Made by a program: the position numbers and the translations under genes | Source: Cavia porcellus | Lineage: Eukaryota > Chordata > Mammalia > Rodentia > Caviidae | Direction: 5' to 3' | DNA length: 64,000 bases | NCBI RefSeq assembly: GCF_034190915.1 | Contig: NW_026947486.1 | Location: 22,685,001-22,749,000, forward strand | The notes under the pieces: generated by a model | Databases searched by the model: none | Seen by the model: the letters and a program-made list of their open reading frames with translations, nothing else | Told to the model about the DNA's origin: nothing | Part shown: piece by piece, positions 12,176 to 48,030 of the stretch | Layout: each line of letters begins with the position of its first letter | How positions within the stretch are numbered: the stretch's first letter is position 1

Positions 12176-13645
12176 TTTTTTTTTTAATTTAAAGAAAAAA
12201 AAGAGACAAAAAAGGTAGAAACAACACAGAATTTCAGAAAAATAAACAGTAAGAAATCACCAGTCGGTAAGTTACATACTGTCATCTTAGAAATAGTTGC
12301 TCAAGTTACAAAATTAAAGCATACAAAGTGATATTCAAACAATGACACTGCAAACAGTTCTGCTCAATGATCCAACAAGAACTTAGTAATATGGTTATCA
12401 GTCCTACACACTTGTTTTTTATCTTAAAGAGGGTAAGATTAAACATAACAAAACAGAACAAAGCAGTTTAAAAGGAAACAATTTAAAGAAATATAGATTT
12501 CAAAGCAAGTCCACTGGAGATCTTCACTGTCTATCTTATTTTCTCGAATTTTCTTCCAAATAGTTGTCCCCATCTTCACACACATTGAATATATATTGCA
12601 CATTATAGAACTAATCAGATCATTAAAGGATGAAGGCTTTTTAGGTTGTCAAGACCTGATTTTGAGCAAGTCAATAATGTCTACCATAATGTTTTTCAGT
12701 CTCTTCACACTAGCTTTCTTTATCTTTACATGCACTGAAATTGAACATAAGAGACTAGACTAATATCACTCTGAACAGTGAATGATAGTATTGCTAGATT
12801 TCATATCATAATGCTGCAGAATTAGTACTGTGTTTCTTAGTGTCTCTTCTTCAGAGCATCCATTCATTACATTGTGTATTATATAATGTGTTCCCGTAAA
12901 TAATTTAGAAATTCTTCCCATGTGTGAGTCTCTACATGTATATCTATCCTTTCTGTATTATAGGGAAAAACAGATCAAAACAAGACAACAAAATAAATTC
13001 CTAGAAAAACATGAAATGAAAAAGACATATAGGACCACAATATTAGGTGATCTACAGTAGTTACTATGGTTTCTCTTGTTATTTTCAATAGAATTGTCCA
13101 CATCATCAGGCATAATATAATTGAACATAACATTACATAGCTATTTTATTAAAAACACAACTTTGAAGATATTGCAGGACTTGAAAGCAGTTAATAATCA
13201 AAACCAGAATGGATATCTTTTACATCTTGTCATCTTCAGAGCAGTTGTCTCTATTCCCAGACTTGATACTATCAAGGATACCATATTAGAATGAAATCAG
13301 TCAAGGCTAAACAGCGATCTAACAAACCAGCTTGAAATAAGATCATTCCTAGTAAGACAATGTAAGTAATACAGGGTTTCAGAATAAGTTAATAGGAAAT
13401 TAAGGATAGTTACTGTGGTATAACCTGCTATTTTTGGGTTAGCTGTCTGTGCCCTCAAATCTAATATGAGTAGACAGGCCAGAACAAAATATAATCAAAC
13501 TAAACAGAGTGATGACTATTGTGCCTTTTAAATCTTGATACACTATTAACAATTACCTCTGCCTTCATTTTTCAGACAAGTCTTCCCTTTTCCCTTTCTC
13601 AGGGTGCTTTGTATATTTTGGGTCCCACTAGCTCTTTTAGTTTTT
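12176..13645 (-). other. 3'UTR of half-L1 copy A
   Basis: The reverse complement matches the 3'UTR of the L1 at 6099-9616 in order: its last 300 bases (12176-12480) and a block near 13376-13430 that pairs with about 8815-8870. The poly-T at 12176-12185 is the A tail. This shared 3' end is the expected handle for borrowed L1 reverse transcriptase. Confidence 0.75.
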
Positions 13646-13649
13646 AGAT

Positions 13650-14065
13650 TCAGAGGCCAGCCTGTTATCTATCTGAGTGTTGCTAAACCTTTTTACCCCT
13701 GAGCTTGAACTTGAGCTGTACTCCTTTACTTACTAAAGTCACAAGGTTTTCCTTCCTTCCAGCTGTGTAGTTCTACACTGCCCAAAAGTGTCATGCTTTC
13801 CAGTCTATCTGCAGCTGCTGGATGAGTTGTCCCTATTTCTCTCTGGTTTCCTGTCACATATAGCATTGTTTTCTCATCTTTGACTCACAGTTTATTAACC
13901 CTCTTTCAGGTTGAGTGTATCTCCTGTTCAGAGCATTTCGATGGATCCTGCCTCCTAATCTACTCTGCCTGTGTTTCTTTTTTTGTTAGTGTATCAGGGC
14001 TATCAATATTAAAGATTATAGCTTACTGTCTCTACCTCAATTCTGCTATGTTATTCTTCTGTCAT
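13650..14065 (-). pseudogene. ORF2 remnant of half-L1 copy A (start fused to end)
   Basis: The position of the ORF2 start codon is 14065-14063 (ATGACAGAAG on minus). About 235 nt of the endonuclease start follow, including the segment around ATCCATCGAAATGCTCTG that corresponds to the conserved D-P-S-x-C-C region. At about 13835-13822 the text jumps to the last 170 nt of ORF2 (GCAGATAGACTGGAAAGC... corresponding to the TEWIRKIW segment). Endonuclease catalytic residues, RT and the cysteine-rich block are gone. Stops show that it no longer codes. The same fusion is present in copy B at 47322-47720. Confidence 0.75.
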
Positions 14066-14184
14066 TATTTGTCCACTTTACTCCTTCATTCCACTGTCTG
14101 CCTCATTCACTGAGGCCTCTCTGTCACTGTTGCTGGAATTCTGGTATGTTTTCCTCTCTCTCTCTCTGGAATGTCCTTCAGTAT

Positions 14185-14862
14185 TTATTGTAGTGTTGGG
14201 TTGGTGGCTATGAACTCCCACAGTTCCTCCTTGCCTTGGAAATATCTTGCTTCTCCATTAATTTTGAGAGAGAGTTTTTCCAGGTGCATCAGTCTTGGTT
14301 GGAGGTTATTTTCTTTCAGAGCTTGGACTATTTCCCTCCTGGCTCTTCTCAATTTGAGAGTTTGTGTTGATAAGTCTGTCATTATTTTGATAATTTTTCC
14401 ATTGTAACTAATCTGCTTCTTTTCTCTGGCTGATTTTAATATTCTGTTCTTGTGGTGGATTTCTGGAATCTGGATTATTATATGTCTGGGTGTAGATCTG
14501 TTTAGGTTGTAGGTGGCTGGCGTTCTGTATGCCTCATTTATCTGGATATCATTTCTTTTTCCTATGCTTGGGAAATTTTCCTTAATTATATCTGTGAATA
14601 TTTTTTGTAGTTCATTTGTGGTTACCCCTGCTTCTTCGCTCATGTTTTTTATTCTTAAGTTATAAATCCTCTTGTCATCTTCTAGCCTTTGTATTGTTTC
14701 TTCCTGGTTCCTTGTTATTTTTAAGAGATCTTTTCTTTCATGATCACACACCATAAATCTCTCTTCAGGTTTCAAAAGGCTAACTTTAGTTTCTGTCAAG
14801 GCATTTTTCCAGCTTTCCATGGAGTTTTTAGTTTTCTGGTAATCTCTTTGGATCTGTTTCAT
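14185..14862 (-). CDS. ORF1 protein of half-L1 copy A (225 codons from internal ATG)
   Basis: The product is an L1 ORF1-type RNA-binding chaperone. The minus-strand frame is open from 14862 (MKQIQRDYQK) to the stop at 14185, and remains open upstream to about 15000. The rest of the N terminus (about 15000-15140) is in another frame, so one frameshift near 14980 separates it from a full ORF1 of about 320 residues. Visible parts are a charged, heptad-rich region and an RNA-recognition-like core (IYNLRIKNMSEEAG). A conserved block with R-T-P and RHIIIQIPEI follows, and the C-terminal domain has basic RRARREI and LSLKINGEARYF. It is the best preserved ORF1 in the window. The original start codon is uncertain because of an A/T homopolymer at 15149-15163. 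Confidence 0.85.
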   Translation of the reverse strand: MKQIQRDYQKTKNSMESWKNALTETKVSLLKPEERFMVCDHERKDLLKITRNQEETIQRLEDDKRIYNLRIKNMSEEAGVTTNELQKIFTDIIKENFPSIGKRNDIQINEAYRTPATYNLNRSTPRHIIIQIPEIHHKNRILKSAREKKQISYNGKIIKIMTDLSTQTLKLRRARREIVQALKENNLQPRLMHLEKLSLKINGEARYFQGKEELWEFIATNPTLQ

Positions 14863-15179
14863 ATATTCTATATTTTGTTTATGTTCTTCATGAAAGGTTT
14901 CTCTTCCTTTTCTGAGTTCCTCCGTTCTTCTATCTGTGTCCTCTTGTGAGGGGCTTATTGTTTCTTTAATTAATCTTTTATATCTTGCCTCACTTGGATC
15001 AGAAGCCCAGTTTTAAATTCATCTATGAGGTCATAAAGGTATTTCTTTATGTCCTCTGATGCTGTATCTAATATTGCATGATTAGTGCATTGTTTATCTT
15101 CTGTATTTATCTCTCTTGGGCTTATTTTTCCAGGGTCAGTGGCTGGAGGGTTTTTTTTTTTTTAATTTCTATCTCATGT

Positions 15180-16408
15180 CACGTTTCTGGTTTCTTTCAG
15201 ACAGGTGTATCCGGGTGGTCTCTGTCCCTCTCCATATTGCTTAGGGTCTTTCCAAGCATGCTGACTGGGGTTTTGCTGCCCTCCCAATTTGCTGTCATCT
15301 GAGGTATCTTAAACTCCCACCCAGGGCCTTAGGATGGTGCGATACACTCACCCTATGCCACCCAGTCCAGAGTTCAAGGTGCAGGCAGGCAGGCCCAATT
15401 CCCCAAAGCTGGTGGATCATGGTAGGAAACCGGAAAGTTCTGGTTCTGTACTTTTGATTATTGTCTGAAGAGGTGTTTTCAGAAGCAGCTTCTCTCACCT
15501 CTGTTCATGGCGGCAGCTCCATAGGGCTACAGTACCATGGGCCTGGCAGCAACAAAGACACACTCACCTGCCCGGGGACCTCTGGGGCACTCTGGCAGCA
15601 GGGACCTGCTCAGCCCTGGTGTTGTGGGCTCTGGTCTTCGCGTGAGTGGCAAGTGCGAAGGTGGTAATACATTCCAGCAGGTCCGTTCCCATGCCCATGA
15701 TGGTGCAATTCTCCTTTCTCCTCATGCCCTCCAGTATGCAGCCCAGATCCGGGGAGGTGGCAGAGGCAGTGGAGGCAGTGGTGGCGGTGGTGGTGGCAGC
15801 TCCGTGGGGCTCAGGTTGCGTGGGCCTGGCAGTGGTTAAGATACACTTGCCTGCCCAGGGACCTCAGGGGCTCTCGGGTGGTGGGGGCCTGCTTAGCGTT
15901 GGTGCCACACACTTGGGTCCTCATGCAAGCAGCAAGTGTGAAGGTGGCAATGCATCCCAGCAGGTCTGGTCCTGCACCCACAGCACCACAATGCACTCTC
16001 TTCATCCTGCCCTCCTGGAGGGGGCCCAGATCACGGATGCGATGGAGGCAGTGGTGGTGGCAGCAATGGTGGTGGGGGCGGTGGCAGCCGATGGGTGCAT
16101 GGTCGCTTCACTCCCCAGCCTCTGGTAGGCCCCTGGTGACAAAGTTAGAGGGGGAGGCTGGAGTCAGTGGCGCAGGGATGGCCTCTCTGGCCGATGGCCC
16201 AGAAGGTCTCAGGGCTTCACGGTGGCACAGCCAGTCAGGAGTGTGTGTTTGATTGGTTTTTCTCACCTTAGTTTCTCCTTGGGATGAGAGAATTTCTCTC
16301 CCTCTATTCGGAGCTCCCTATGTTGTACTATGTTGAGTTCTAAGTTGACTATCTCAGGGAGCCTCTGTAGCCAGCTGTTGTCTATCTGCCATCTTAGCTC
16401 TGCCCTTT
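15180..16408 (-). promoter_or_regulatory. Half-L1 5'UTR with two GC-rich monomers of about 285 bp and a YY1-like site
   Basis: GGCAGCTCC-type starts recur at 15512, 15795 and 16083 (spacing 283 and 288), giving two tandem monomers and the edge of a third. They are rich in GGCGGTGGTGG-type runs. At the 5' end the minus strand reads AAGATGGC (plus 16388-16395), the YY1 core that sits at the same place in human L1 and helps set the transcription start there. Long open frames across 15537-16252 on plus reflect GC bias. Confidence 0.7.
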
Positions 16409-16420
16409 CATTCAAATTTA

Positions 16421-16572
16421 ATGGAGAAACAAGATATGTCCATGACAAAGAACAACTAAAGAAATTCATGTCCACCAAACCAACCCTAGAAAGAGTGTTG
16501 AAAGACATGCTAGAGATAAAAATGACCACAATCTCCAGAACAAAAAAAGAAAGAAACCACCAGGCTGGATAA
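16421..16572 (+). pseudogene. L1 ORF1 pseudogene, 3' end, resumed after nested insertion
   Basis: After the right target-site duplication the host ORF1 continues: a frame with FKFNGETRYVHDKEQLKKFM followed by TKPTLERVLKDM, the standard ORF1 C terminus. It joins in sense to the text that stopped at 12175. About 50 bp later the ORF2 region begins. Confidence 0.85.
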
Positions 16573-16620
16573 GAAATTAAACAAGGGAGAAAAGTGGGAA
16601 ACCAACAATAGAAGCACAAC

Positions 16621-19600
16621 ATGGCAAAGACAAGCCAGTATATATCAGATATCCTTAAATGTAAATGGCCTCAATTCACCTGGCAAAAGAAAGAGGTTGA
16701 CAGAATGGATCAAGTAACAGGATTCCACAATATGCTGTGTACAAGAAACACATCTAACTCAAAAGGGAACTCATAGATTAAAAGCTAAAGGGTAGAAAAC
16801 AGTATTCCATGCAACAGGAACCCAGAAAAAAGCAGGGAGTGAACTTCAAACCTAAATGGATCCAAAGGCCACCACAAACTTGTAAGTAGAAACCTACAAG
16901 AGGAAGAATTAACAATTATAAATATATATGCACCAAATACAGGAGCACTTAACTATATAAGAAAAATACTAATGGACATAAAAACCAAATACCCAAGAAC
17001 ACAGTTGTAATAAGAGACCTTAACACCACACTGTCACAAAGACATAGATCAACTAGACAAAAAGTCAGCAAAGAAATAACAGAATTGAATCATACCTGTG
17101 AGCAACTGGACTTAGTAGATGTTTACAGAGTGTTCCACCCAACCACATCAGACTATACATTCTTCTCAGCTGCACATGGGACATTCTCCAAAATAGACAA
17201 TATATTAACTCGTAAAACATTGTTAAGTAAATACAAAGAGTGAAATTATCTCATGCATAATATCTGACCATAATGCACTAAAATTTGAAATCAATGGCAA
17301 AAAAGTGCAAAACCTACATAAATACATGGAAATTAAACAACAACCTTTGAACAACCAGTGGGTTACAGATGAAATTATAGTAGAAATAAAACAATACCTA
17401 CAATACAATGAAAATGCAGATACAACATACTACAACCTATGGGATGCAATGAAAGCAGTCCTAAAAGGGAAATATATAACAATAAATAGTCACATCAAGA
17501 AAATGAAATGAGCAAAAATAACCTAATGCTACATCTCAAGCTTCTAGAAAAGGAAGAGCAAGACAAACCCAAAGCTCATTGAAGAGAGGAAATTGTGAAG
17601 AATAGAGCAGAAATGAATGCAATTGAAACAAAAAAACACAAAGAATTAATAAATCAAGGAAACTGGTTCCTGTGAAAATAAAAAAAAAATTGATAAACCT
17701 CTAGCCAACCTTATCAAGAAGAATGAAAAGATCCAAATTCACTCAATAAGGACTGAAAAGGGGAAATTAATACAGATAACATGGAAATTCAAAAGATCAT
17801 GAATATCTACTTTGAAAATCTCTACCCACATAGAGTAGAAAACGCAGATTCCTAGAAAGGTATGAGCTGCCAAAGCGCAATCAAGAAGATATAACAATTA
17901 TGAATAACCCAATATCAGCTACTAAAATTGAAAATGTGATTAAATACTTACCAACAAAGAAAAACCCAGTTCCTGATGGATTCATGACTAAATTCTATAA
18001 GAAATTTAGAGAAGACTTAAACCCAATACTCTTTAAATTCTTCAATGAAATCAAAAGAGAAGCAGTCCTCACTAACTCATTCTTGGAGGCATGAATCACT
18101 CTAATATCAAAACCAGAGAAAGACCCAGCCAAAAAAGGGGAACTATAGACCAGTCTCACTAATGAACATTGATGCAAAGATTCTCAATAAGATATTGGCA
18201 AATAGAATGCCACAAATCATCAAGAAGATTATACATCACAACCAAGTGGGATTTATTCCAGGAATGCAGGGATGGTTCAGCATACACAAATCAATAAAAG
18301 TAATACACCATATCAACAGAGCCAAAAATAAAAATTAATAAACACAGAAAAGCTTTTGATAAAGTCCAACACCTGTTCATGATTTTAAAATAAACCTTAC
18401 AGAAACTCAGAATAGACGGTATGTACCTCGATCTCATTGGGGCCACTTATGACTAACCAACAGCCAACGTTACATTAAATGGACAAATACTGAAAGCGTT
18501 CACTTTAAAATCAGGAACAAGACAAGGATGTCCACTATTATCACTCCTTTTTAATAGTTCTGGAAACACTAACCAGAGAAATCAGACAAGAGAGAGAAAT
18601 AAAAGGAATTAAGATAGGAAAGGAAGAATTTAAATTATCACTATTTGCAGATGACATGATACTCTACATAAAAGCCACCAAAAATTTCATTAAAAGACTA
18701 CTAGAGGTAATAAACAAACACACCAGTGTAGCTGGATACAAAATCAACACTCAAAAATCAATAGCATTCTGTCAAACAAAGTAAAACTCACTCACTGAGA
18801 GAGAAATTATAGAAATATAGCCTTTCACAATAGCATCTAAAAAATGAGATACTTAGGAATCAACCTAAGAATGTAAAATATCTATATGCTGAAAATTATA
18901 CTACTCTTTAAAAGGCAGTTGAAGAGAATATTAGAAAATGGAAGGCTATTCCTTGCTCTTGGTTAGGAAGAACCAAAATTGTGAAAATAGCCATACTCCC
19001 AAAACTGTTATACAGATTCAATGCAATCTCAATCAAAATATCATTAACATATCTTACAGATCTAGAGAAAATATTCCTAAAATTCACTTGGAAATAAAAG
19101 AAACCTAGAATAGCAAAGGCAACTCTGGGCAACAAGGCAAGGCAGGAGGCATCTCAATTCCTGACTTGAAACTATACTACAAAGCCTCAGTAATAAAATC
19201 AACACAGTAATAAAACCATCATGGCAAAGAAATAGACCTGAGCATCAATGGAACAGATTAGAAGATACAAACACTACTACAGAGACACTCAGATACCTCA
19301 TATTTGCCAAAGGGGCTAAACGTTCACTGGAAAAAAAGACAAACTCTTTAATCAATGGTGTTGGAAAAATTGGCTTTCCCCATGCCGAAGACTGACAATA
19401 GACCCATGCCTATCACCATACACTTATCTAAAGTCAAAACAGATCAAGGATCTAAATATTAAAACAGAAACACTAAATGTTCTGGAGGACAAGGTAGGTA
19501 GAAATCTTGGAGACATAGGGGTAGGCAGAGAATTCTTGACTGAAACACAAACCACATGGGAAATACTTCAAAGCATCAACAACTGGGATCTCATATTACT

Positions 19601-20343
19601 AAAATGTTTCTACACTTTAAAAGAAATCATCAATAAAGTGAAAAGAAAACTCACAGAATGGGAAAGAATTTTACCCAACCATCCCTCAGAAAAAGGACTT
19701 ATATCCAGAACATACAAAGAAAAACATCAAACTCCCCAAATTCAAAACCCTCTCCAAAAATAGGCATCTGAGATAAGCATATAGTTCTCAGATGAAGATT
19801 AACAAATGGCAAATATATGAAGGAATGTTCACCATCACTGGTCATTTGAGAATTGCAAATTAAAACAGCATTGAGATTTCATCTCACCCTGGAAACAATG
19901 GCCACCATCAAGAAAACAACTAATAACAAATGTTGAGGATGCATGGAAAAAGGAACACTTCTCTACTCTTGGTGGGAGTGCAGACTGGTACAACCACTGT
20001 AGAAATCAGTATGGCGATTACTCAAAAAAACTACAATTGGAAGTTCCATTCAATTCAGCTATTCCCCTTCTGGGTATTTTCCCAGAAAATTGAAAAGATC
20101 GTGTCACAGTGATATATGTTCATAGCAGCACAATTTATGATAGCTAAATCTTGGAAACAACCAAAATGCCCATCAATCACAGAGTGGATGGAAATAAAAT
20201 GTGGTATTTTTATACAGTGGAATATTACTCATCTATAAAAAGGATGATTTTGAGGCCTTTATAGGAGACAACTTGAAAATATCCTCATAAGTGAAATACA
20301 CAAGACTCACATTAGTAAATATCACATTGTCTCTCTAGTATAA
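16621..20343 (+). pseudogene. L1 ORF2 pseudogene, near full length
   Basis: This is the endonuclease-RT gene of the L1 at 10545-20827. The start corresponds to ATGGCAAAGAC at 16621 and the stop to TAA at 20341-20343. Endonuclease text includes the TFFSAAHGTFSKID-type segment (about 17157-17200). RT text includes LPTKKNPVPDG (about 17950), [10 protein letters not shown] (about 18250) and FADDMILY (about 18645). The C-terminal cysteine-rich block (about 19930-19990) is altered: the second cysteine codon is followed by an early shift. Many frameshifts and stops limit open pieces to fewer than 80 codons. It is a useful full-length reference for the ORF2 deletion in the two half-L1 copies. Confidence 0.88.
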
Positions 20344-20827
20344 AAAATTAAATCTGACAGAGTAATGAGATCCAAAAAGTATAATAGCTATTGTATAAGT
20401 GAAAAGGAAGGAAAGTGCTCTAAAGGGTATAATGGTATGTATAATAGATGATCATCTGTTGTATCATTGAACAGAAGGATTTGCACTGTCAGTGTTTGGG
20501 TGTGTAGCCACGTTTTGTGCTTTAATTTTTTTTTTTTATTTTGGCAACTATTTTCCAGATGGCAATGTGTCATTACTAGAGATTTTATTATGTTAATTAT
20601 TTTTTTGGAATTCTGTATTGGTCTACCTTTTTTCTATTTTTTTAGTTTTCTTTCTTTTAAAAAAGGATAACAATATGTAATATAACAACCATTGTTAAAT
20701 TTCTTTCATTCTGTTTTGAAAGCATGGATTGTTATTATTTGGGGTTTGTGGCTGTTTGTCCATTTTGCTTTCTGTTTTTCTTTTCTGACTTCTTTTTTTT
20801 AAAATAAAAAATTAATAATAAAAGAAA
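20344..20827 (+). other. L1 3'UTR, short form, with A-rich end
   Basis: T-rich, non-coding, about 480 bp, ending in AAAATAAAAAATTAATAATAAAAG just before the right TSD. It is less than half the length of the 3'UTR at 8446-9616, which suggests a different L1 subfamily or internal deletion. Confidence 0.7.
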
Positions 20828-20841
20828 AAAGACATCAAAAA

Positions 20842-21180
20842 ACCGCTTCAAATAAATAGTGGCAGTGAACCTCTTAAACATGGATAAAGAATTTGAAATA
20901 CAAATAAATAAACATGGAGCTCCAAAAATCATTACCAAAATAAATTGACATCAAGGCTTTTGATAAACAAGTTTCAAGACATTCAATACAAGAACCAAAG
21001 CAGCTACACAAATTTACCTATGAAGGAAAGCCCATGAGAATCACACCAGATTTCTCAACATAAATGCTGAAATGAGAGCTTGGTGTGTGGTAATTCAAGC
21101 ACTAAAAGAAAACAAGGTTCAACTCAGATTGATATACCTTGTAAAACTGTCCTTCAAAAATGGAAGAAGGTTCCTGTTTA
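20842..21180 (+). pseudogene. Old L1 ORF1, C-terminal part, resumed after the L1 insertion
   Basis: The text continues the ORF1 broken at 10530: a segment parallel to 46760-46800 (CTTAAACATGGATAAAGAATT), then a basic AAAGCCCATGAGAATCACACC stretch, then the ALKENK...QPRLIYL-type end (about 21095-21140). The frame is broken. At 21180 it meets antisense ORF2 text abruptly. Confidence 0.7.
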
Positions 21181-21182
21181 CA

Positions 21183-23750
21183 CACAGCTCCTCTGTATTT
21201 ATTATTGGTTGAATTGTTGATGATAGCCATTCTTTTGGGAGTGAGATGGAATCTCATTGTTGTTTTCATATGCATTTCTCACTTGATCAATAGTGTTCAA
21301 CATTTTTTCATACATTTATATACCATATTCATATGAGAATTGCATATGCATCTCAGATGTTCAGTTTTACATTGGGTCTTTCAATTTAATGGATCTGAAT
21401 TTTTTATTTTATTTATTTATTCCTGAAATAAGTCCTTTGTCTAAGGGATGATTCGTTAAAATTTTTTCCCACTCTGTGGGTAGCCTTTGCACTTTGTTGG
21501 TGATTTCTTTTGCTGTACAAATCTTTTTAATAAGATGAGATCCAAGTTTTTGATTCTTTGAAGTACTTCACTTGTTTTCTGTTTGTTCATGAACCCTCTG
21601 CATACACCTGTATCTTCATGATTACTACTTTTCCAGAAAATTCAGTGTTTCCATTTTAATATTTAGATCTTTCATCCATTTTGACATTAGTTTAGTGTAT
21701 GGTGATAGACATGGGTCTGGTTTTAATTTTGACGTCTAGAAAGCCAGATTTTCATGCATCATACATTAAAGGGGCTTTCTGTCTTCCAGTAAACATGTTT
21801 GACATCTTTGTCAAAGATAAGGTAGCTGAGTATGTTTCTAGTTCTGTTGGCATCTTCTAATCTGTTCCACTGGTACTTAGGTCTGGTTTTTGTTTTTTTG
21901 TTTTTATGCCACTTTTACAGTAGCTTTGAAATATATTTTTAAGTCAAGGATTGTGATATCCCCTGCCTTGCCTTTGTTGTCCAGAATTGTTTTTGTTATT
22001 CTAGGTCTCTTCTGGATAAGAAACGAATTTTAGGAGTATTTTTCTACTTTTGTGAGATAGGCTAATGGAATTTTGATTGGGATCGCAATAAATCTATACA
22101 ACAATTTTGGAAATATGGCCGTTTTCACTATGTTCGTTCTTCCTACCCAAGAGCAAGTGATAATTTTCTATTTTCTGATATTCTCTTCCATCTGCTTTTT
22201 CAGACTACAGAAATTTTCAATGTACACATCTATTATTTTTTTCACATTGACTTGTAATTATTTTATGAATGCTATTGTGAAGGGCACTATTTCACTAATT
22301 TCTGTCTTAGTGAATTTATTGCTTGTGTACAGCAATGTTACTGATTTCTGAGTGTTGACATTGTATCCAGCTACACTACTGAATTTGGTTATTAAATCTA
22401 CATGTCTTTTGGTGGAGTTTTTGGAGTCTTCAATGTAAATTATCATGTCATCCACAAATAATAATTTAAGTTCTTCTTGTCCTATCCTTATTCCTTTTAT
22501 TAATTTCTTTTGTCTAATTGCTGTAGCTAATTTTTCCATAACTATGTTAAATAGAAGTTGTGATATTGAACATCATTGGTTTTTTACTGAATTTAGAGTA
22601 AGAGCTTTTAGATTTTGACCATTTAATATGACATCAGCTATTTGTTTGTCACAGATTGGTTTTATCAGATTGAAATAAAGGTCATCTGTTCCAATTTCCT
22701 GTAAGGCTTTTTATTATCATGAATTAGCATTGGACTTTTCAACTGCTTTTTGTGCATCTAATAAAATGATCACATGATTTTTCCTTTTGGCCCTGTTGCT
22801 GTAGTGTATAAAATTTATTGATTCTCATATGTTGAACCATCTCTTCATCTCTAAGTGAATCCTAATTGCTCATGATGTATCATCTTATTGTTGATCTATT
22901 GCATTCTGTTTCACAGAATCTTACTGAAGATTTTTGCATCTATGTCCACTAGGGAGATTGGCTTGCTGTTTTCCTTTTCTGGTTGGGCCCTAGTCTGGTT
23001 TTTGTATCAGGGTAATACTTGCTTCCAGAAATTATTTTGGGAAGTATTGCTTTCCTTTCAATTTCATTAAAGAGTTTCAACATTAGTGGCATTAATTCTT
23101 CTCTAACATTTTTTTGTAGAATTCAACAGTTAATCCAACCAAATGCGGGCTTTTTTGTTGTCATTAGTAAGTGTTTAATTACAACTTGGATTTCACTGAA
23201 TAAAATTGGGTTACTTCAGATTTTAACATCTTCTTGATTCAGTTTTGGCAACTCACATATTTCTAGGAGTCTCCCTATTCTATAATTTCCATCTTGTTAG
23301 AGTATAGGTTCTCAAAGTAAGTATGATCATCTTCTGGATTTCTGCAGGATCTACTGTGATTTGCCCCTTTTCATTCCAAATTGCATGAATTTGAGTGTTT
23401 CCTCTTTTTTAATAGTACTTTTTTAAATAGTAACCTAACAGATTATCAATTTTATTTAATCTTTCAAACAACCATGTCCTCTACAAATAGAATAGTTTCT
23501 CTTGCTTTTTTTCTGGGATCCTTTTGCATGGAGTGTTATTTTCCATCCTTTGACTTGCCATCCATGAATTTGTTTTTTTGAGTTAAATACATTACTTGAG
23601 TGCAGCATATTGTTGGGTCTTGTTTCTTAATCCATTATTCTTTTTCTTGATTGGGAGTTGGGACCATTTACACTGACGGTTACAACTGATATGTATTGGA
23701 TACTTTTTTCATGCTATTTTCCTGTTGTTGGTTCCCTGTCTTTCCCCTTT
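21183..23750 (-). pseudogene. L1 ORF2 pseudogene (C terminus and middle missing)
   Basis: Minus-strand ORF2 text starts at the cysteine-rich region (about 21200) and runs to the endonuclease start. The active-site region reads F-V-D-D-M at about 22450 (LLFVDDMIIY) where the family has F-A-D-D, so both aspartates are kept. Longest open piece: 93 codons (22258-22539). Stops, frameshifts and the internal deletion near 23480-23590 make it inactive. Confidence 0.8.
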
Positions 23751-23767
23751 GTTTAATTATTTGCATA

Positions 23768-23869
23768 AGGGCTGGGGATTTAGCTCAGCAGCATAAGCGC
23801 CTGCCTTGCAAGCAGGCGGTCGTGAGTTCGATCCCTGGTACCGATAAAAATGAAAAAGACGAAAAAAAA
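23768..23869 (+). mobile_element. ID-like tRNA-derived SINE (copy 2)
   Basis: A well preserved copy: GGGCTGGGGATTTAGCTCAG head, anticodon-arm stem CCTGC/GCAGG around loop CTTGCAA (anticodon TGC, alanine), B-box GAGTTCGATCC, then CGATAAAAA and an A-rich tail. It is flanked by AATTATTTGCATA at 23755-23767 and 23870-23882. The stem and anticodon support a tRNA-Ala origin. Confidence 0.95.
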
Positions 23870-37807: not shown

Positions 37808-38218
37808 TGTTTTTTTTTTAATTTTAAAGAGAGTAAGACAAAACAGAACATAACAGAGCAGATCAGAACAGAACAATGTAAGCAACACAGTATTTCACCA
37901 GAAGACAACCCATAATTAACAGTAATTACCACGATGTCTCTTTCTTTGAAATAGTTGAGTATAACTTCATATATAATAGTATCAAACATAACAAAATAGT
38001 ATAAAAACATTCAAGAGAATGAGAGTATTACAGGGCTTTAGAACCAAATAACAGAAAACAAACAGTGGCTACTATATTATCTCATTTTCCATAGGAAATT
38101 TGTTTATACTTTCACATGTAATATGATCCAGTAAGGTACAACATTATAGAGCCAATGGAAACACAAGAGCAAAAGCATGGTAGGACTTAAGAGTAAGATG
38201 ATATTATATCAGTACTGG
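37808..38218 (-). mobile_element. Nested L1 fragment consisting of 3'UTR only
   Basis: A T run opens about 410 bp that aligns with the antisense 3'UTR at 118-600. The host ORF2 resumes after a short duplication CTATTGTT (37794-37801 and 38219-38226). It contains no coding sequence. Confidence 0.8.
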
Positions 38219-39707
38219 CTATTGTTGTTTTAATTTGCACCTCTTGAATGACCAATGAGATTGAACACTTTTTTTTGCATATTTATGTGCTGTTCAAGTT
38301 TCTTCATCTGAGTAGTGTGTGCTCATCTCAGAAGCCCATTTTTTTGGATTGGTTTTTAAATCTGAGAGGACTGATGTTTTTTAGCTCTTTATATGTTCTC
38401 CATAATAATCCTTTGTCTGAGCTACAGTTGGCAAACATTTTCTCCCAGGTAGTGGATTGCCTCTTAATTCTGTTGGCAGTTTCTCTTGCTATGCAAAATT
38501 TTTACAGTAGGGTGAGATCCCGGTTGTTGATTCTTTATAATACTTCTTGTGCAATCAGGGTTTCATTCATAAAGTTTTTGCCTACACCAGTGTCTTCAAG
38601 ACATTTATCTTCCAGAATATTTAATGCTTCTTTTTAATATTAACATCTTTGATCCATTATGACTTTAGATTAGTACATGGTAAAAACCTGGGTTCAGTTT
38701 TAATCTTCAGTGCGTGTAGAGCCAGGTTTACCACACCATTTATTAAAAAGGCTATCACTTTTCCAGTTAATGTTTGCTACCTTTGTCAACAATAAGGTGG
38801 CTTGGTGTGTCTGGGGTTATTTCTGCATTTCCAATCTGTTTCACTGATTTTGGGGGTCTATTTTTTTAGCCAGTACCACACTGTATTAATTGCAGTAGAT
38901 TTATTGTATACTTTCAAGTCAGAGATTGTGATGTTCTTTGTCTTGTCTCTGTTGCCTAGGATTGCCTTGGCTATTTTAGGTCTCTTCTGGTTCCAGAAGA
39001 ATTTTAGGATTGTTTTATCTAATTCTGTAAGATATGCTATTGGAATTTTCATTGGGATTGCATTTAATCTGTATAAAAGCTTGGGAAGTATGACCATTTT
39101 CGCTATATTGGTTTTTCCTACCTAAGACCATGGGATATCTCTCCATTTTCTAATATCCTCCTCTTCTGTCTTCTTTTTCAGAGTACTGTATTTTTCAATG
39201 TAGAGATCTTTCACAAACTTTGTCACACTTGCTTCTAGATATTTCAGTTTTTGGATGCTATTGTGAAAGGTATTGTTTCCCTGATTTCTCTCTCAGTGAG
39301 TTTGTTATTTTTTTATGGGAAGGCTAGTGATTTTTGAGTGTTGACACTGTAACCAACTAAATTACTGAATTGGCTGGTTAAATCTAGTAATCGTTTGGTG
39401 TAGTTTTTGGTGTTTTCTAAGTAGAGCATCATGTAATCTACAAATACAGTTAAATTTCTTCTATTTTTCTACTTTTTATTTATTTCTCTTGTCTATTAGC
39501 ATCAGTTAAAGTTTCCAGGACCATATTGAGTAACAATGGAGACAGTGGACATCCTTGTCTTATTCCTGATTTTAGAAAATTTTTAGTTTTTGTCCACTTA
39601 GTATGATATTTATTGTTAGTTTGTCATAGATGGCTTTCATCAGGTTGAGATAAAGACCATCTAATATCTGTAGTGTTTTAATTATGAATGGGTGCGGGAC
39701 TTTGTCA

Positions 39708-39833
<126 letters not shown>

Positions 39834-40568
39834 TCATGGGATACAATTTTGATGATTGGCTGCAGTCTGTTTGCCGGTAGCAGATTTTTGCATCAACTTT
39901 CATTAGGGAGATTGGCCTGTAACTCTCTTTCTTAGTTGGTCCTTCTCTGATTTTGGTATCAGGGTAATGCTTGCTTCCAGGAATGAATTTGGAAGTACTG
40001 CTTCCCTTTCAATTTCATTAAAGATTTTGTGGTGTAATGGCTTTAGATCTTCTCTAAATTTCTTATACAATTCAGCAGTGAATCCATTAGGGCCTGGACT
40101 TTTCTTTGTTGACATGTTTTTAATTACATCTTCAATTTTATTGATATTGGGTTATTTATTATTTTTATCTCTTCTTGATTCAACTTTGGTAATTCACATG
40201 TATCCAGGAATCTGTCCATTCTTCTGTGTTTTCCATCTTATTAGAACACAAGTTTTCAAAGTAGGTATAGATGATTTTCTGGATTTCTGCAGGGTCCTTT
40301 ATGATTTCCCTCTTTTCATTATTAATAGTGTGGATGAGACCTTTCTTTCCTTTTTTGATAAGGTTGGCCAAGGGCTTATCAATTTTATTTCATCTTTCAA
40401 AGAACCAACTTTTCAATTCATTGATTCTTTGTACTGTTTTAGTGTTCAGCATAATTTCGGCCATAATTTTTGTAATTACTTCCTTTGTATGAATTTTTGG
40501 CTTTCCTTGCTCTTCTATTTCTAGAAGTTTGAGGTTCAACATTAAGTTGCTTATAGCACTTGCTTTGT

Positions 40569-40686
40569 TTTCCCGAAAGAAGAGGGAAATTTGTCTTCCT
40601 CACAATGTTACATGTCAGTGTCTAGATGGTGACTCAAAGAAACTGGTTTGCCTTCTGATTACTGTTCTATTGAAAAGGTGCTTTTA
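40569..40686. other. Short unassigned spacer
   Basis: Between the antisense L1 and the SINE I see no feature beyond the SINE's target site (40672-40686). Confidence 0.4.
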
Positions 40687-40809
40687 GGGGCTGGGGATTT
40701 AGCTTAGCGGCATAAACGCCTGCCTTGGAAGCAGGCAGTCGTGAGTTCGATCTCCGGTACCAATAAAAAGGAAAAAAACAAACAAAAAAAAAATAGATAA
40801 AAAAAAAAA
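40687..40809 (+). mobile_element. ID-like tRNA-derived SINE (copy 3)
   Basis: GGGGCTGGGGATTTAGC head, CCTGC/GCAGG stem, GTGAGTTCGATC B-box, a long A-rich tail with a few substitutions, and the 15-base duplication GAAAAGGTGCTTTTA at 40672-40686 and 40810-40824. An anticodon-loop base is changed (TTGGAAG). Confidence 0.95.
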
Positions 40810-40989
40810 GAAAAGGTGCTTTTAAATGGGTATCACAGTAAATTCTTAGAAAACATGCATGATTGGGTGTGAACAGCCATGTTCCGTTTTTAGGAGTGAT
40901 TGGTGAATTATCAATTATGGTTTTATGAGTTTTATTAAATGATGTGTACTTAACAGGAAAATAGAATATAAATAAAATAAGTTCTTAAT

Positions 40990-41510
40990 ATGTAATGAGT
41001 GTTTAGAATAAATATCACCATTTTCAACATCAACTGTTTAACTGCTTACAAATCAGAAAATAACAGCAGAAATGATTTACTATGTGAAGTACAATGAAAA
41101 TACAAACAAATCTCTATCACAGAAATAATCTTTGCTTCAAATATTACTCCTAAGGCAGTCTTGATTGATGAAACAGGATGTTTTATAGACAGGTCTCACT
41201 TATACTGATAATATGTGTGTTTATCTTTCTTCTGTGTTTGGCAGGCCATACTTATCACTTCTCTTTTCTTCTATTTTTGTCAAGAGCTTCCTATTATATT
41301 GTACAATGTTCCCTTAGCAGGAAAAGGAAATATCAATAACATAAAATATCAAATATATATTAAGGGTTTACAATATAAATCAACAATGTCTGCATCAACA
41401 GTTTGCTTGCTAAATCAAAAAATAATGACAGAAATAAATTCCTACATGAGAATTCAAATAAAACACTAACACAAAAATAATCACTACCTCAATTATTATA
41501 CCTAAGGCAG
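40990..41510 (+). repeat. Diverged direct duplication, period about 352 bp
   Basis: The block from about 41030 to 41165 (AACATCAACTGTTTAACTGC ... CCTAAGGCAG) recurs at about 41385-41515 (TGCATCAACAGTTTGCTTGC ... CCTAAGGCAG). The last ten bases are identical at 41149 and 41501. The units are AT-rich and non-coding. I cannot assign them to a known family. Confidence 0.6.
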
Positions 41511-41674
41511 TTTTATTTTTTAAATTTTATTGGTATATTTTAGATACACAAAATGATACCATTAATCATAGGGAAATTATTCTCATGCATAATATATCTT
41601 ATTTTTAATTTTCCCATTCCCATCCCCTCCTTTCAACACCACTTCACTCCTTATTTACAAAAGATTTGTTTCCA

Positions 41675-41685
<11 letters not shown>

Positions 41686-41706
<21 letters not shown>

Positions 41707-41782
41707 TTGGTACTGGGGATCAAACTCACGACCTTGTGCTTGCAAGGCAGGCGCTTATGCCACTGAGCTAAATCCTCGGCCC
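41686..41782 (-). mobile_element. ID-like tRNA-derived SINE (copy 4, antisense)
   Basis: A long T run, then GGTACTGGGGATCAAACTCACG and the reverse of the GCGCCTGCC core. Target duplication TCCATTTTTCTTCTT lies at 41668-41685 and 41783-41797. Only this copy is antisense. Confidence 0.92.
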
Positions 41783-41999
41783 TCCATTTTTCTTCTTATT
41801 CTATTTTTATTTTTATCTCTCCTTTTCTTTCTCCCTCCCCTTCCCATGTTCCCTTTCCCATTTGAACATTTTCTTCACATTTCCCAATGTCTATTATATA
41901 TTTTGGATCTTTAGACTTCTGATTTCTCACACTAGAGAAATAATGTTGTATTTAAACGTATGCGTCAGATTTTTTTCATTTAAGAATACTTTTCTTTCA

Positions 42000-43005
42000 G
42001 TTTCTTATACTAGAGAGAAAATATGGTATTTACACGTATCAGTCTGATTTATTTCACTTATGAGTATGGTCTTGAGTTGCATCAATTTGCCTATGACAGC
42101 CTTGAGTTTATCCTTTTTTATAGCTGGGTAGTACTCCGTTGTATAAAAAATAACATTTTTTACCCCATTTTTCAGTTGATGGGCATTTGTGTTGTTTTCA
42201 GAATTTAGCTATTAAAAATTGTGCTGCTATAAATATGGGTGCACAAATATCATTGTGGTATTATTTTAATTCTTCTAGGAAGATACCAACTAGTGGAATA
42301 ACTGGGTGGAATGGGACTTTTAATACTAAAATTCTGGGGAATCTCCACACTGATTTCTACAGTGGAGTCTACATTCTCACTAACATTGGAGATGGGCTCC
42401 TTTATCCCCACAGTCCATCCACCCTTTGTTATTGGTTGATATCCTGGTCATAGCCATTCTTTCTGGAGTATGATGGAACCTCACATTGCTTTAATTTGCA
42501 TCTCTCGAATGACCAGTGATGTTAAACAATTTTTCATGTATTTATTTGCCATTTCTACTTCTTCATCTGAGAAGTATCTATTCATTTCAGATACCCATTT
42601 TTAATTGGGTCATTAAATTTGGAGAGTCTAAACTTTTTAATTCTTTATATATTATAGACATTAATCCTTTGCCTGAAAAACACTTAAAAATTTTTCCCAT
42701 TTCTGTAATGCTGTGAGGTATGCTATTGGTATTTTGATTGGGATTGCATTGAATCTGTATAACTGTTTTGATAGTATGGCAGTTTCCACTATAGTGGTTC
42801 TTCCTATCAAGAATAAGAGCTATCTTTCCACTTTCTGTATTCCTCTATCTCCTTTATCAGAGTAATGTAGTTTGCAATGTAAAAGTCTTTTACTTTCTTT
42901 GTTAGATTGATTGCTTGGCTTTCGTCTTCTTCTTCTTCTTCTTCTTCTTCTTCTTCTTCTTCTTCTTCTTCTTCTTCTTCTTCTTCTTCTTCTCCTCCTC
43001 CTCCT

Positions 43006-43065
<60 letters not shown>

Positions 43066-45060
43066 TCTTCTCCTTCTTCTCCTTCTCCTCCTTCTCCTCC
43101 TTCTCCTCCTTCTCCTCCTTCTCCTCCTTCTCCTCCTTCTCCTTCTTCTTCTTCTTTTTCTTCTTCTTCTTCTTTAGATGCTATTGTGAAAGGGGTTGTT
43201 TCCCTGATTTCTCTCTCAGTGAGTTTGTTACTTGTGAATAGGAATAGTAATGATTTTTGATTGTTCACCTTGTATCCAGCTGCATGACTGAATTCATTCC
43301 TTAATCTAGAAGTTCTGTAGTGGAGTTTTGGGGATCTTCTATGTAGAGAATTATGTCATCCACATGTAATGATAATTTAACTTCTTCCTTTCTTATCCTT
43401 ATTCCTCTAATTTCTTTTTCTTATCTAATTGTTCTGACCAATGTTTACAGAACTATATCAAATAGTAATGGTGATAGTTGATATTCTTGTCTTGTTCCTG
43501 ATATTGGAGTGAAAGATTTCAATTTTTAACCATTTAATATGATGTTGGCCATTGATTTGTCATAGATGGCTTTTATCAGATTGACATAAAGGCTATTTAT
43601 TCCAATTTTCTGTATGGTTTTTATGATGAATATTTTATTTTGTAAAATATTTTTATAATATGTATTGAGGTTATCATCTGGGTTTTGCCCTTTGTTCTGT
43701 TAATATAGTCTAGTATACTTATGAATAGCCAATGTTGAACCATCATTACATCCCTGGGATGAATCCTACTTGGTCATGCTGTATGATGTTCTTGATGATG
43801 TTCACTAGGAATATTGGCCTGTAGTTCTATTTTTTAGTTGGATCCTTCTTTGATTTTGGCAACAGGGTAATACTTCCTCCTAAGAATTAATTTGGAAGCA
43901 TTGCTTACCTTTCAATTCCATTAAAGTGGTTGGGAAGAAGTATTAGATTTTTCTCTAAATATCTTGTAGAATTCAGCAGTGAATATGTCATGACATAGCA
44001 TTTTCTTTACTTCAAGATTTCTAATTCCATCTTCAATGTCTTTGACTGATATTGGTTATTTAGAATTTTTATATTTTCTTCATTCAACTTTGATAATTTA
44101 TATGCATCTAAAAATCTATTTCTTCTGTGTTTTCCAAATTAATGAAATATAGGCTTTTTAAGTAGTATAACAATACTTACTTCTAAATTTCTGGATTTCT
44201 GCAGAATCCATTGTGATCTCATCCTTTTCATTTCTAATTGTGTGAATTTCAGCCTTTTCTTTCCTTTTTTGATAAGTTTAACTAACAGTTTCTCAACTTT
44301 ATGTAATCTCTCAAAGAACCAATTCATTGATTCTTTGTAATGATTTCCTAGTCTCTATTGCATTAATTTTTGCTCTGATCTTTATCATTTCCTCCCTTGT
44401 ATGAACTTTCAGCTTGATTTTCTCTTCTTTTACCAGAAAATTAAGGTTCAACAAAAGGTTGTTTATTTGAGCTTACTATTTTTATACTATCAAAATTGAC
44501 TACCCTAAATTTTCCTCATAGAAGTGCTTTGTGTCCCATAAGTTCCAGTATGTTGTGTTGACACTGTAGTTTAATTGTAGAAAATGTCTAATTTCTTCTT
44601 TATTTTCATCTGTGATCCACTGTTTGTTCAGGAGAATGTTATTTAATTTTCATGTTTTTATGCAGTTGTTGCATTTTGTTTTGCATTGATTTCCATATTC
44701 CACTCTGCTGTGATAATATTCATGGGAAATGTTTAATGATCTTGCATTTAGTTAAGCATGTTCTGTGAGTTAATATGTGATCTATTTTGAAGAACACCCT
44801 GTGTGCAGCTGAGGAGATGTGTATTATGGTGCAGCAGAGTGGAACACTCTGTAGACATCTACTAAATGCATTTACTCACAGACTTCATGTAGTTTGGATT
44901 TTTTTGCTGATTTTTGTCTAGCTGACCTATTTTTAACAATGAGTTATTGATATCCTACATTACAATCATATTAAATGCTTTCTGTATGCATCATATTGTT
45001 AGATCTTGCTTCTTGATTCTTTCTGGCAGTCTTTGTCTCTTAATTGGTGAACTGGGACCA
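42000..45060 (-). pseudogene. L1 ORF2 pseudogene with internal deletion and microsatellite
   Basis: Minus-strand ORF2 text from the C terminus (about 42050) to the endonuclease start (about 45050), with many stops. Near 42695-42720 a large part of the C-terminal half is missing. A trinucleotide array sits in the RT C-terminal part. The RT catalytic region is recognisable near 43355 (NIILYIED-type neighbourhood) but decayed. Inactive. Confidence 0.75.
42924..43176. repeat. Compound trinucleotide microsatellite (TTC, TCC, TCCTGC, TTCTCCTCC)
   Basis: About 250 bp in ordered zones: (TCT)n to about 42990, (CCT)n to 43010, (GCTCCT)n to about 43062, then interrupted (TCTCCT)n and (TTC)n to 43176. 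One strand is pure pyrimidine for most of the length, apart from the G of the GCTCCT zone. Long open frames appear on both strands simply because the repeat has no stop. It has expanded inside antisense L1 ORF2. Confidence 0.97.
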
Positions 45061-45119
45061 TTGACAGGGATGACTATAATATGCATTGACTTATCCTTGT
45101 CTCGTTATTGTCCTTTGTT

Positions 45120-45860
45120 TGGTCCCCCATTTTAATTACTTGCTTTAACTAGTGGATTAATTTTGTTTGTGTTCATGAAATTGTAGTCTATTTTATCTCT
45201 TTGTAGAATGTCCTTCAGAGCATTTTGGAGTGCTGGTTTGGTGGTAATGAATTACTTCAGTTGTTCCTCATCATGATCGTATCTGTTTTCTTTTAAGGAT
45301 TGAAATACATTACTCCAAGCTCTCTTTGCCTTAAGGCTTTGTGTTGAGAAGTCTGATGTGATTCTGACAGGTCTTTCTTTATAGGTTATTTGTTTCCTTT
45401 ATCAGCTTTTAATATTCTGTTTTTATGTTGAATTTACATAATCTTTTATGAATTTATGGAATCTTTGGAAATTTTCTGCCCTTACTTTGGTAAACATATT
45501 TATTAGATAATTAATGCTATCTCCTGCTTTTCACCTGACTTTGTTGAATCTTATGTTATTCTTTTCTTTTTTATTTAAGATTAAAAAGACACAGAAAAGA
45601 AAATTTAAAAGGCAAAAGACAAACAAACAACAAGAAACCAAATACAGTAACAGTACAGATTTATAAAGCAAGATGATAGGAATTTGACAATGGTTGTAAT
45701 ATTATATATTGTTACCTTCAAGAGGTTTGCTTAGATTGACAGATATAGATATATAAAATTGATCAAAACATAAAAGCATTAACTGTTCTGTATACTTTAA
45801 TTATCTAGTAACTGTTTGATTTCTTTGTGGTCCGTTGCTATTTTTAAGAAATAATTCTTA
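45120..45860 (-). pseudogene. L1 ORF1 pseudogene, C-terminal part, with an L1 3'UTR scrap at 45573-45805
   Basis: Antisense ORF1 text (45170-45570), then about 230 bp that resembles an antisense L1 3'UTR (TTTTTTATTTAAGATTAAAAAG start), then ORF1 again (45816-45860). The scrap's target duplication is not clear. The ORF1 N-terminal part continues only at 48031, beyond half-L1 copy B. Confidence 0.65.
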
Positions 45861-46202
45861 GCCAACTGCCATCATCATCAGGGACTGGTAAGCAGTACAG
45901 GCTGGGAGAATAAACCAGCCATGCCCTCGCAAGTCACCAGCCACCTTCCCCATTGGGGACCATAGCCAGTGTGGGCCAGGAGAACCATCCAACCACACCC
46001 CTGTTCAGCTGCTGCCATCAGGAGAGTCTCAGTGTAGCCATGTGTGTCTGGAAAAGTCTGCCCCATACCCCACTGCCACCTCCAGGAAACTAGGCCAGGA
46101 GAAACCCAGGTGCGTGGCCTAGTTCCCTACACCATGGGCGGGCAACCAATACAGAAATCCTCTGGAACCTCATAATCAACTTGTCCAGAGAAACCCAGGA
46201 AA

Positions 46203-47270
46203 ATGTCAAGAAAAAGGTGCAAAAGGCAATCTCTGGCCTCCAATCCACACAGAATGAGTCTAGGAGATATAGAAGTAGAAAAAATTGGAAGTTGCATACC
46301 TAAAATTTCTGAAAGGATAGCAATTGAAGTAAATGAACAACTTCATGAGGATGTAAAAGTAATTAGATCAGAAATAATATCTCAGATAAAAGAGGAAATT
46401 GGAAAAATAATGAAAGAATTACTGAGCATATATAAAGAAGACTTAAAGAAACAGCATAGAAAGATGACAAAAACCTTGAATGAACAATATAGGAAAGAAT
46501 TACAATCCACAAAATAGATCCAAAGATATACTGAGAAAATTAAAAACTCGACTGAAGGATGGCAAAACCACTTGAAAGAAACTGAAGATTGATTTCAGAT
46601 CTTAAGGACAAGAATGATGCTAGTGGTAATGAAAGGAAAGGTATCTTAAAATGACAAGGAAGCAGGAAATAAAAAATTTAGTGGCTGCAAGATGACACAA
46701 AGAAAAATAATTTAAGACTGATTGTTGTCATTGAAAACACAGGGGTCAGCACAAATGATATAAAAAGACTGTTTACAGAAGTAATAGCAGTAAACTTTCC
46801 AAGCATGGGAAAAGAGCCCAACATCCAAAATAAATGAGGCATATATAACTCCACCTAGCCATAACCAAGATAAATCTATACCCAGACATATAATAATCAA
46901 GATCTCAGAAATTCAGCATAAGAGCAGAAAATCAAAGGGAGTTAGAGAAAAGAAACAGATCACCTATAAAGGAAAACACTTCAGACTCATGTCAGACATC
47001 TCAACACAAACCATTAAGTCAAGTAGAGCTCAGAATGAAGTGTTTCAAATCCTGAAAGGAAACAACTTCCAACCCAGATTGATGTATACTGCAAAACTAT
47101 CTTTCATAATTAATCAAGAAACAAGATAGTTCCATGATAAAGAACAACTGAAAGCATCCATGACCACCAAACCAACCCTATAAAGAGTGCTGAAGGATAT
47201 TCTAGAGCAAGAAAAAAGAAGGCCACAGTTCCAGAAACAGCAGCAGAGAGGGACTGCCAAGCAGGGTAGG
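46203..47270 (+). pseudogene. ORF1 pseudogene of half-L1 copy B
   Basis: It starts with ATG at 46203 (MSRKRCKRQS, basic N terminus) and is open for 104 codons to TAA at 46515. It contains a charged, heptad-rich segment (ERIAIEVNEQLHEDVKVI). ORF1 text continues in other frames: a coiled-coil end, an RNA-binding core near 46700-46870, and a C terminus near 47180 (TKPTL-type, then VLKDILEQEKRR). Several frameshifts. It is older than the ORF1 of copy A. Confidence 0.82.
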
Positions 47271-47321
47271 AAACTGAATGGAACGGAAATGATGGGGGGT
47301 GGGGGGCAGCAGGAGAATAGC

Positions 47322-47720
47322 ATGACAGAGATGAGTCAGTACATGTCATTCATAAAAATTACAGTAGATGGTCTTAATTCACCAATAAAAAGATACATGG
47401 GCCGAGTGGATTGGGAGACAGACCCATCGATATGCTGTATATGAGAAACACATTTGACTTGAAGGAAATTCAATGGCTGGAGGTCAGAGGAGTGAAGACA
47501 ATGCTCCATTTGGCAGGAACCCATAAAAATGCAGGGGTAACTTACCCACCAACCACAGAATGGATCAGAAAGATATGGCATTTTTATACAATAGAAAGCT
47601 ACCCAGCTATAAGGGAAAATCTCAAGGCTCTTATAGATAAATGGATGCAACTTGAGATCTTGCTCATGGGTGAAATTGCTTGGTCTCATTTGTGAACACA
47701 GTGTTGTATTCCTAGTATAA
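47322..47720 (+). pseudogene. ORF2 remnant of half-L1 copy B (start fused to end)
   Basis: It starts at ATGACAGAGATGAGTC (47322) and keeps the first 75 codons or so of the endonuclease (GLNSPIKR at about 47370, DPSICCI at about 47420). Text then passes directly at about 47538-47545 to the last 60 codons (TTEWIRKIWHFYTIESY, about 47553-47605) and stops at TAA 47718-47720. About 3.3 kb is missing compared with 16621-20343. A 94-codon frame (47411-47695) spans the junction. Confidence 0.85.
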
Positions 47721-48030
47721 AAAAAAAGTTAGTGGGATCCAAAATGTATAATAGATATTATGAAAGAGAAAAGGGAGAAAACAACTAAAGGAGGAAGATG
47801 GTAGCCCTTGTTATTTTCCTACTATCTTGTTTTGCAATTCTGCAACATTTTCATTATTTTTTGTTGGTTTTATTCTGTTTTATTTTGATTTACCTTTTTA
47901 TGTCTAAGCAGGTTTCCAAAGATAAAAAGGGCATTATGGCAGCCATTGTAGTTTCCTTTTATCTTGTTTTGAAGTCCTATATCACTTTCATGTTTTGTTT
48001 GGCTTTATTTTGTTTCATTTTGTTTGTTTT

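Follow-up and report, generated by a model that had tools for sequence, protein, structure and literature searches.

A shared ORF2 deletion junction and a half-L1 (HAL1) lineage in the guinea pig genome

Two L1-derived elements, here called copy A and copy B, lie on opposite strands of the stretch of guinea pig (Cavia porcellus) DNA analysed in this study (64,000 nucleotides of contig NW_026947486.1, hereafter the window; coordinates are window positions unless a genome location is given). In both, the beginning of the second L1 open reading frame (ORF2) is fused to its end, and the question raised by this locus is whether the two inherited the fusion from a common ancestor or acquired it separately. 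Very probably, both belong to a single half-L1 (HAL1) lineage in which ORF2 was lost a single time, ORF1 was kept and the ORF2 protein (ORF2p) was presumably supplied by autonomous L1s. The first-pass annotation of the window had already read the pair as descendants of an ORF2-less ancestor that kept transposing. The tree, the shared junction and the derived bases described below support this reading, as does the HAL1 architecture it had recognized, with ORF1 kept and ORF2 gone.

The ORF2 junction of copies A and B

The comparison involves the following features, with L1 F, an ORF2-bearing L1, as the yardstick.

12176–16405, minus strand: HAL1 copy A, 4.23 kb, nested in the plus-strand L1 F
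12161–12175, no strand: target-site duplication of A, one side
16406–16420, no strand: target-site duplication of A, other side, with one mismatch
14185–14862, minus strand: open part of ORF1 of A, 225 aa, with the RRM-like and C-terminal domains of L1 ORF1 protein (ORF1p)
13825–14049, minus strand: retained ORF2 5' piece of A, start codon decayed to ATA
13648–13824, minus strand: retained ORF2 3' piece of A, far end approximate
45860–48028, plus strand: HAL1 copy B, ends approximate, apparently within ORF1 of the minus-strand L1 E
46130–47183, plus strand: ORF1 region of B, without a long open frame
47322–47542, plus strand: retained ORF2 5' piece of B, ATG present
47543–47716, plus strand: retained ORF2 3' piece of B, joined to the 5' piece between 47542 and 47543, far end approximate
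16421–20343, plus strand: L1 F, with an ORF1 part at 11251–12160; the breakpoints map to about 16840 and 20167

From an L1-type 5' end (GGGCAGAGCTAAGATGGC), copy A runs through a GC-rich 5' untranslated region (5'UTR), ORF1, the fused ORF2 remnant, a long 3'UTR and an A-rich tail. The 15-bp target-site duplications on its two sides differ at one position, and its flanks, once joined, rebuild the ORF1 of L1 F, which aligns across the site to other ORF1s. Therefore, A is a retrotransposed insertion and is younger than F. Its 225-aa ORF1 part matches Pfam PF02994 and PF17490 as well as the PDB L1ORF1p chains 2yko/2ykp (E about 4e-35). Copy B has ORF1 pieces of L1 E on both sides; the empty-site alignments are weak and the ends of B are not sharp. 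The extents given earlier stand apart from small shifts (A ends at 16405 rather than 16408, and B covers about 45860–48028 rather than reaching 48030). Of the ORF2 starts named at that stage, the ATG of B at 47322 holds, while the one for A, at 14065, is another ATG; the homologous position in A, 14049, reads ATA.

A aligns to B continuously through the join and beyond it on both sides. With nhmmer, a piece of A comprising linker and junction aligned to B over 573 of 585 positions (E = 5.5e-38). The join falls between 13825 and 13824 in A and between 47542 and 47543 in B, and these breakpoints coincide, which confirms the claim that both copies carry the same ORF2 junction. Also as claimed, the complete ORF2 of L1 F is about 3.3 kb longer between the same points (about 16840 and 20167), and this is the stretch that was lost. 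The two copies were thought to differ at about a quarter of positions; the actual figure within 47400–47610 is higher, at 65 of 207 aligned positions (31%).

The junction was checked within the window using the majority sequence of the B family (built from the genome copies described below) as a query against the L1 copies, A and B. A and B are uninterrupted across the join, whereas the L1 copies stop at or before it. Matches on the 5' side end at query position 346 (L1 F), 350 (L1 D), and 252 and 268 (L1 C and L1 E), and matches on the 3' side start at query position 350–351 in six copies (at window positions 20167, 859, 42185, 8262, 61693 and 37046). One more 3'-side fragment begins at query position 442, and two matches with E values of 0.08 and 0.57 are probably due to chance. 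At the genome loci, where the join lies at query position 470, 11 matches fail to span it. Six of these are L1 3' sides starting at 468–471, three are 5' sides ending at 471 (L1 copy L040), 480 (L039) and 429 (L052), and the remaining two are portions of HAL1 copies broken by gaps.

The B-family majority has ...GGGGTAGCT up to the breakpoint and TGCCCATCAAC... beyond it (in shorter form, ...GCAGGGGTAGCT and TGCCCATCAACC...). This join is in frame, with V-A encoded before and C-P after the breakpoint, and the wider frame runs A-G-V-A, then C-P-S-T-T-E-W. The L1 letters adjoining the two breakpoints show neither microhomology nor GT-AG ends. The lost stretch starts with ATTATG, as read in L1 copy L040, and ends with AAA or AAG before TGYCCA in most of 12 L1 3' sides; an AG ending is thus present in some. 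These letters bear on the suggestion that the join is a splice product of L1 RNA that was made repeatedly and not inherited, as in spliced integrated retrotransposed elements (SpIREs), which are spliced L1 insertions. SpIREs and the elements described here are alike in being L1 derivatives without a working ORF2, and a clean join without microhomology is what splicing would be expected to produce. However, the join is not at GT-AG sites, and the junction copies share derived bases on both sides of it and form one lineage. We therefore regard repeated splicing as extremely unlikely.

Junction copies across the genome

The first-pass annotation had suggested searching the source genome for further copies of the junction and building a phylogeny from them. 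When the host assembly (3,145,436,244 bases in 584 contigs) was searched, all 40 scored matches to the B junction query spanned the join (76–80% identical, self-match aside), as did all 40 scored matches to the A junction query (93–95% identical, self-match aside). These were the best of 4892 and 3423 candidates, respectively, numbers that represent a first look and are not copy counts. The 51 loci that were fetched, including those of A and B, were picked by junction similarity; they contain 54 elements that span the join, three more than sought. A-family copies are 94.2–97.0% identical to their own majority (30 copies), and B-family copies are mostly 86–89% identical to theirs (range 78.9–89.0; 21 copies).

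Junction-bearing copies are scattered over many contigs. Furthermore, 21 of the 29 other A-family loci reach a common 3' terminus, with different flanks; six end before it, as the locus runs out, and two fail to reach it. A crude search for target-site duplications in four of the A-family loci that reach the terminus found nothing convincing. Since A and B share a single L1-rich 36-kb stretch, they could in principle be ordinary L1 copies that were deleted after insertion, the deletion having spread by local gene conversion. Both the distribution over many contigs and the sharing of a 3' terminus by loci that differ in their flanks contradict this, and the probability that we attach to local conversion is close to zero.

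The relationship between junction copies and L1s was examined with trees and with shared bases. Three trees built from the window only group A with B, with ultrafast bootstrap (UFBoot) support of 87 for ORF1, 97 for the linker and 73 for the 3' piece. A genome tree was then built from 33 junction copies and seven L1 copies. The junction copies comprise 13 of the 31 that best fit the A majority and 20 of the 23 that best fit the B majority (three short ones were omitted), and one of the L1 copies, L052, has ORF2 read only as far as the join. The branch that splits the 33 junction copies from the seven L1 copies has a UFBoot support of 100, and the next branch has 91. Terminal branches measure about 0.085–0.155 for the B-type copies, which occupy positions near the root, and about 0.03–0.055 for the A family, which is nested among the B-type copies; copies L050, L042 and L049 diverge between the B-type copies and the A family. 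This ladder is the shape expected of one long-lived master lineage. Assuming neutral change at about 2.2e-9 per site and year, terminal branches of these lengths would correspond to roughly 15–25 million years for the A family and 40–70 million years for the B-type copies, as an order of magnitude only.

In the 5' stretch, 455 sites were compared, and at 38 of them A and B agree with each other against the L1 majority; in the 3' stretch, this holds for 30 of 240 sites. Five of the 30 precede the join and carry no weight, and 86 and 41 sites, respectively, were set aside as ambiguous. These data also address the possibility that two separate L1 copies suffered ORF2 deletions at the same points independently. 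Deletions do occur near the HAL1 5' breakpoint: L1 D has an ORF2 deletion of its own (window 23494–23479) that starts within about ten bases of it. That deletion ends elsewhere than the one in HAL1 (at about 17658 on F), whereas both breakpoints coincide in A and B. The two also share derived bases, many junction copies are found across the genome, and the tree contradicts separate origins by placing the junction copies in one group apart from L1 with a support of 100. Independent deletion thus has a negligible probability, and a single inherited deletion is the explanation we adopt.

As a separate observation, many of the changes that A and B share are A-to-G or C-to-T on the sense strand (28 of 38 in the 5' stretch, 15 of 30 in the 3' stretch). 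RNA editing, the decay of CpG sites or a loss of A-richness could each produce this pattern.

ORF1 and the retained ORF2 pieces

Majority sequences of ORF1 were built from 29 sequences for the A family and 18 for the B family; one of 29 and three of 20 loci were dropped, as they had no 500-base match. The two majorities are free of stops for 380 and 378 codons. Over 374 codons they differ at 95, 82 and 145 first, second and third codon positions, respectively. The ratio of nonsynonymous to synonymous substitution (dN/dS, Nei-Gojobori) between the families comes to 0.35 overall; for the RRM-like and C-terminal part it is 0.32. Given the overall value, ORF1 was kept coding by selection; it stayed under purifying selection between the A and B families. 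Among 150 ORF1 matches scored from 127,111 candidates, many at 78–80% identity to A have frames of more than 300 aa.

The retained ORF2 pieces give a different result. No excess of third-position changes was found when they were compared between the family majorities: differences at codon positions 1, 2 and 3 number 18, 23 and 19 in the 5' piece and 28, 16 and 18 in the 3' piece. These counts are corrected for frame at a 2-nt gap; the uncorrected ones (20, 19 and 21; 28, 16 and 19) lead to the same outcome. The two pieces show 0.27 and 0.35 differences per site, close to the value of 0.31 for 52 fourfold sites in ORF1. Of 30 A-family copies, 29 have ATA at the ORF2 start site and 28 have TGA at one codon, and the majority sequence contains a TAG. 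In the B family, the start site is ATG in 13 of 20 copies, and the codon that is TGA in the A family reads TGA in nine of 21, CAA in three, CGA in two, TAA in two and something else in five. One interval is 15 nt long in 16 of 21 B-family copies and in L1 copy L040, and 17 nt long in L1s E and F and in the A-family majority. A reading of the TGA and of a 4-nt deletion here as lesions shared by A and B was rejected, as the codon varies within the B family and the interval measures 15 nt in L040 and 17 nt in the A-family majority.

A younger copy with an open ORF1 frame (ORF1 match at C12:32737439-32738113) provides a further comparison. Lying 325 nt behind the ORF1 match, 77 bases of it (G000:C12:32738438-32738514, designated L059) resemble the 3'UTR of A at 68 of 77 positions; in A, the corresponding distance is 740 nt. 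In this one copy, 415 nt of the stretch of linker and cassette, including most of the ORF2 remnant, are apparently missing.

The retained ORF2 pieces thus drifted as non-coding sequence and are a decaying scar; the fused frame is in frame at the join, yet it was not kept. The short ORF2 cassette had earlier been singled out as the special part of these elements, a view that does not fit with pieces that evolve like non-coding sequence and appear largely gone from the single younger copy sampled. It is highly unlikely that the fused cassette codes for a small protein, made up of about 75 endonuclease N-terminal and about 60 C-terminal codons, that plays a part in the life of the element. An in-frame join in the B-family majority and an ATG start in 13 of 20 B-family copies are consistent with such a protein. 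They are outweighed by the lack of a third-position excess between the majorities, by the ATA, TGA and TAG codons of the A family, by the B-family interval of 15 nt (17 nt in L1s E and F, 15 nt in L040) and TGA in nine of 21 copies, and by the younger copy that is 415 nt shorter there. We allow a slim chance, slightly better than that of a lasting role, that a mini-ORF2 protein translated from the founder's in-frame fusion aided the start of the young lineage, the cassette having later decayed and been shed.

The HAL1 lineage, its proposed mechanism and its relatives

We propose that a master L1 lost about 3.3 kb of ORF2 once, the deletion lying between N-terminal codons of the endonuclease (...G-V-A) and C-terminal codons (C-P-S-T...). 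RNA from the deleted master would still have coded for ORF1p and finished in an L1-type, A-rich 3' end. As judged from the anatomy of the copies, this HAL1 RNA would have been reverse transcribed by ORF2p from autonomous L1s. The element is without reverse transcriptase or a full endonuclease, so it must use ORF2p of this kind. The window also contains an ORF2 part that is open for 736 aa (6235–8445), so the same genome had active autonomous L1s. Supply in trans fits with the target-site duplication and the A-rich tail, and with a 3' terminus shared by loci whose flanks differ. The tree shows that the lineage went on copying over a long span, from B-type to A-type, during which selection held ORF1 while the ORF2 pieces drifted and, in one younger copy, appear to have been mostly lost.

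Several points weigh against this explanation. The genome matches were selected for resembling A or B, and therefore show existence and spread, not frequency. At the ends of copy B, no clear A-tail was found, and the one candidate duplication, an 8-bp repeat, is doubtful. A alone agrees with the L1s at 51 (5') and 19 (3') sites and B alone at 76 and 51, and in sum these outnumber the sites at which A and B agree against L1. Such a surplus is what long private branches would give, with B retaining more L1 states. In raw ORF1 identity, B is closer to F (69.5%), L1 D (67.0%) and K63 (70.0%, a sequence that may be an L1) than to A (65.9%), which sits on a long branch. An ORF1 frame of more than 270 aa is present in only one of 30 A-family loci, and six of 30 lack a match of at least 60 aa; with long ORF1 frames so rare among the sampled copies, these do not demonstrate that the A family itself was active recently. 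Finally, we infer the supply of ORF2p in trans from the absence of ORF2 together with the L1-like 3' end.

Half-L1 retrotransposons of mammals were reportedly described by Smit in 1999 and by Bao & Jurka in 2010 (Gene 465:9-16), both as given by citing papers. The lineage in the window is HAL1, a good instance of this already known type: it has a coding, L1-derived ORF1, has lost the ORF2 protein and is multicopy by retrotransposition, as seen in the tail and duplication of A and doubtfully in B. In the excerpt consulted, PMC5753468 describes HAL1s as L1 derivatives that code only for ORF1p, with several origins in mammals. Bao & Jurka, whose work is cited in part of PMC3627910, put the time for which guinea pig HAL1 ORF1 stayed coding at about 29–44 million years; PMC3627910 also gives the view that HAL1 depends on ORF1p of its own in cis and takes ORF2p in trans. 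Selection on ORF1 alongside a drifting ORF2 remnant agrees with this view, as far as that excerpt sets it out. In the part of PMC3183009 available, HAL1-1E, 1G, 1H and 3D_Cpo appear in the guinea pig row of a table, apparently as the youngest families of the species. Excerpts of four papers (PMC5753468, PMC5322556, PMC3183009, PMC3627910) depict HAL1-1E/1G/1H_Cpo and HAL1-3D_Cpo as L1-derived, coding only for ORF1p and long-lived with a coding ORF1, like the lineage here. By description, and not by sequence, it may be one of these named families.

HAL1 is homologous to the autonomous L1s of the host (F, C, D and E in the window) in ORF1, in the linker, at both ends of ORF2 and at the 3' end. 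It is without about 3.3 kb of ORF2, which hold the whole reverse transcriptase and the greater part of the endonuclease, and copy A has an extra stretch of 3'UTR. L1TD1, an ORF1-derived host gene according to the portion of PMC4161310 seen, is likewise an L1 derivative without a working ORF2, whereas HAL1 here is a dispersed multicopy element and not a gene. The lineage is a clean case of one inherited deletion scar marking a non-autonomous retrotransposon over a long span; it is a traceable marker for the host rather than a new type of element.

Other repeats were noted in and around these elements. The 5'UTR of A contains an imperfect tandem unit of about 285 bp (15508–15800 versus 15791–16088, spanning 15508–16088; 69% identical), within which the matches of genome copies to A fragment. 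Tandem Repeats Finder gave no report at this unit (15508–16088), which may be a monomer-like promoter repeat. Two old ORF1 fragments on the minus strand (49927–49398 and 59842–59266) group together with a support of 100, and no ORF2 match was found adjoining them; they are possibly an older family consisting of ORF1 only. ID-like, tRNA-derived short interspersed elements, about 79–90% alike, lie at 23770–23869, 40685–40790, 41684–41783, 48766–48865 and 55386–55484, and elements of this type point to a rodent host. A pair of direct repeats (52432–52775 and 54292–54637), 90% identical and separated by about 1.5 kb, resembles the paired ends of a long terminal repeat element.

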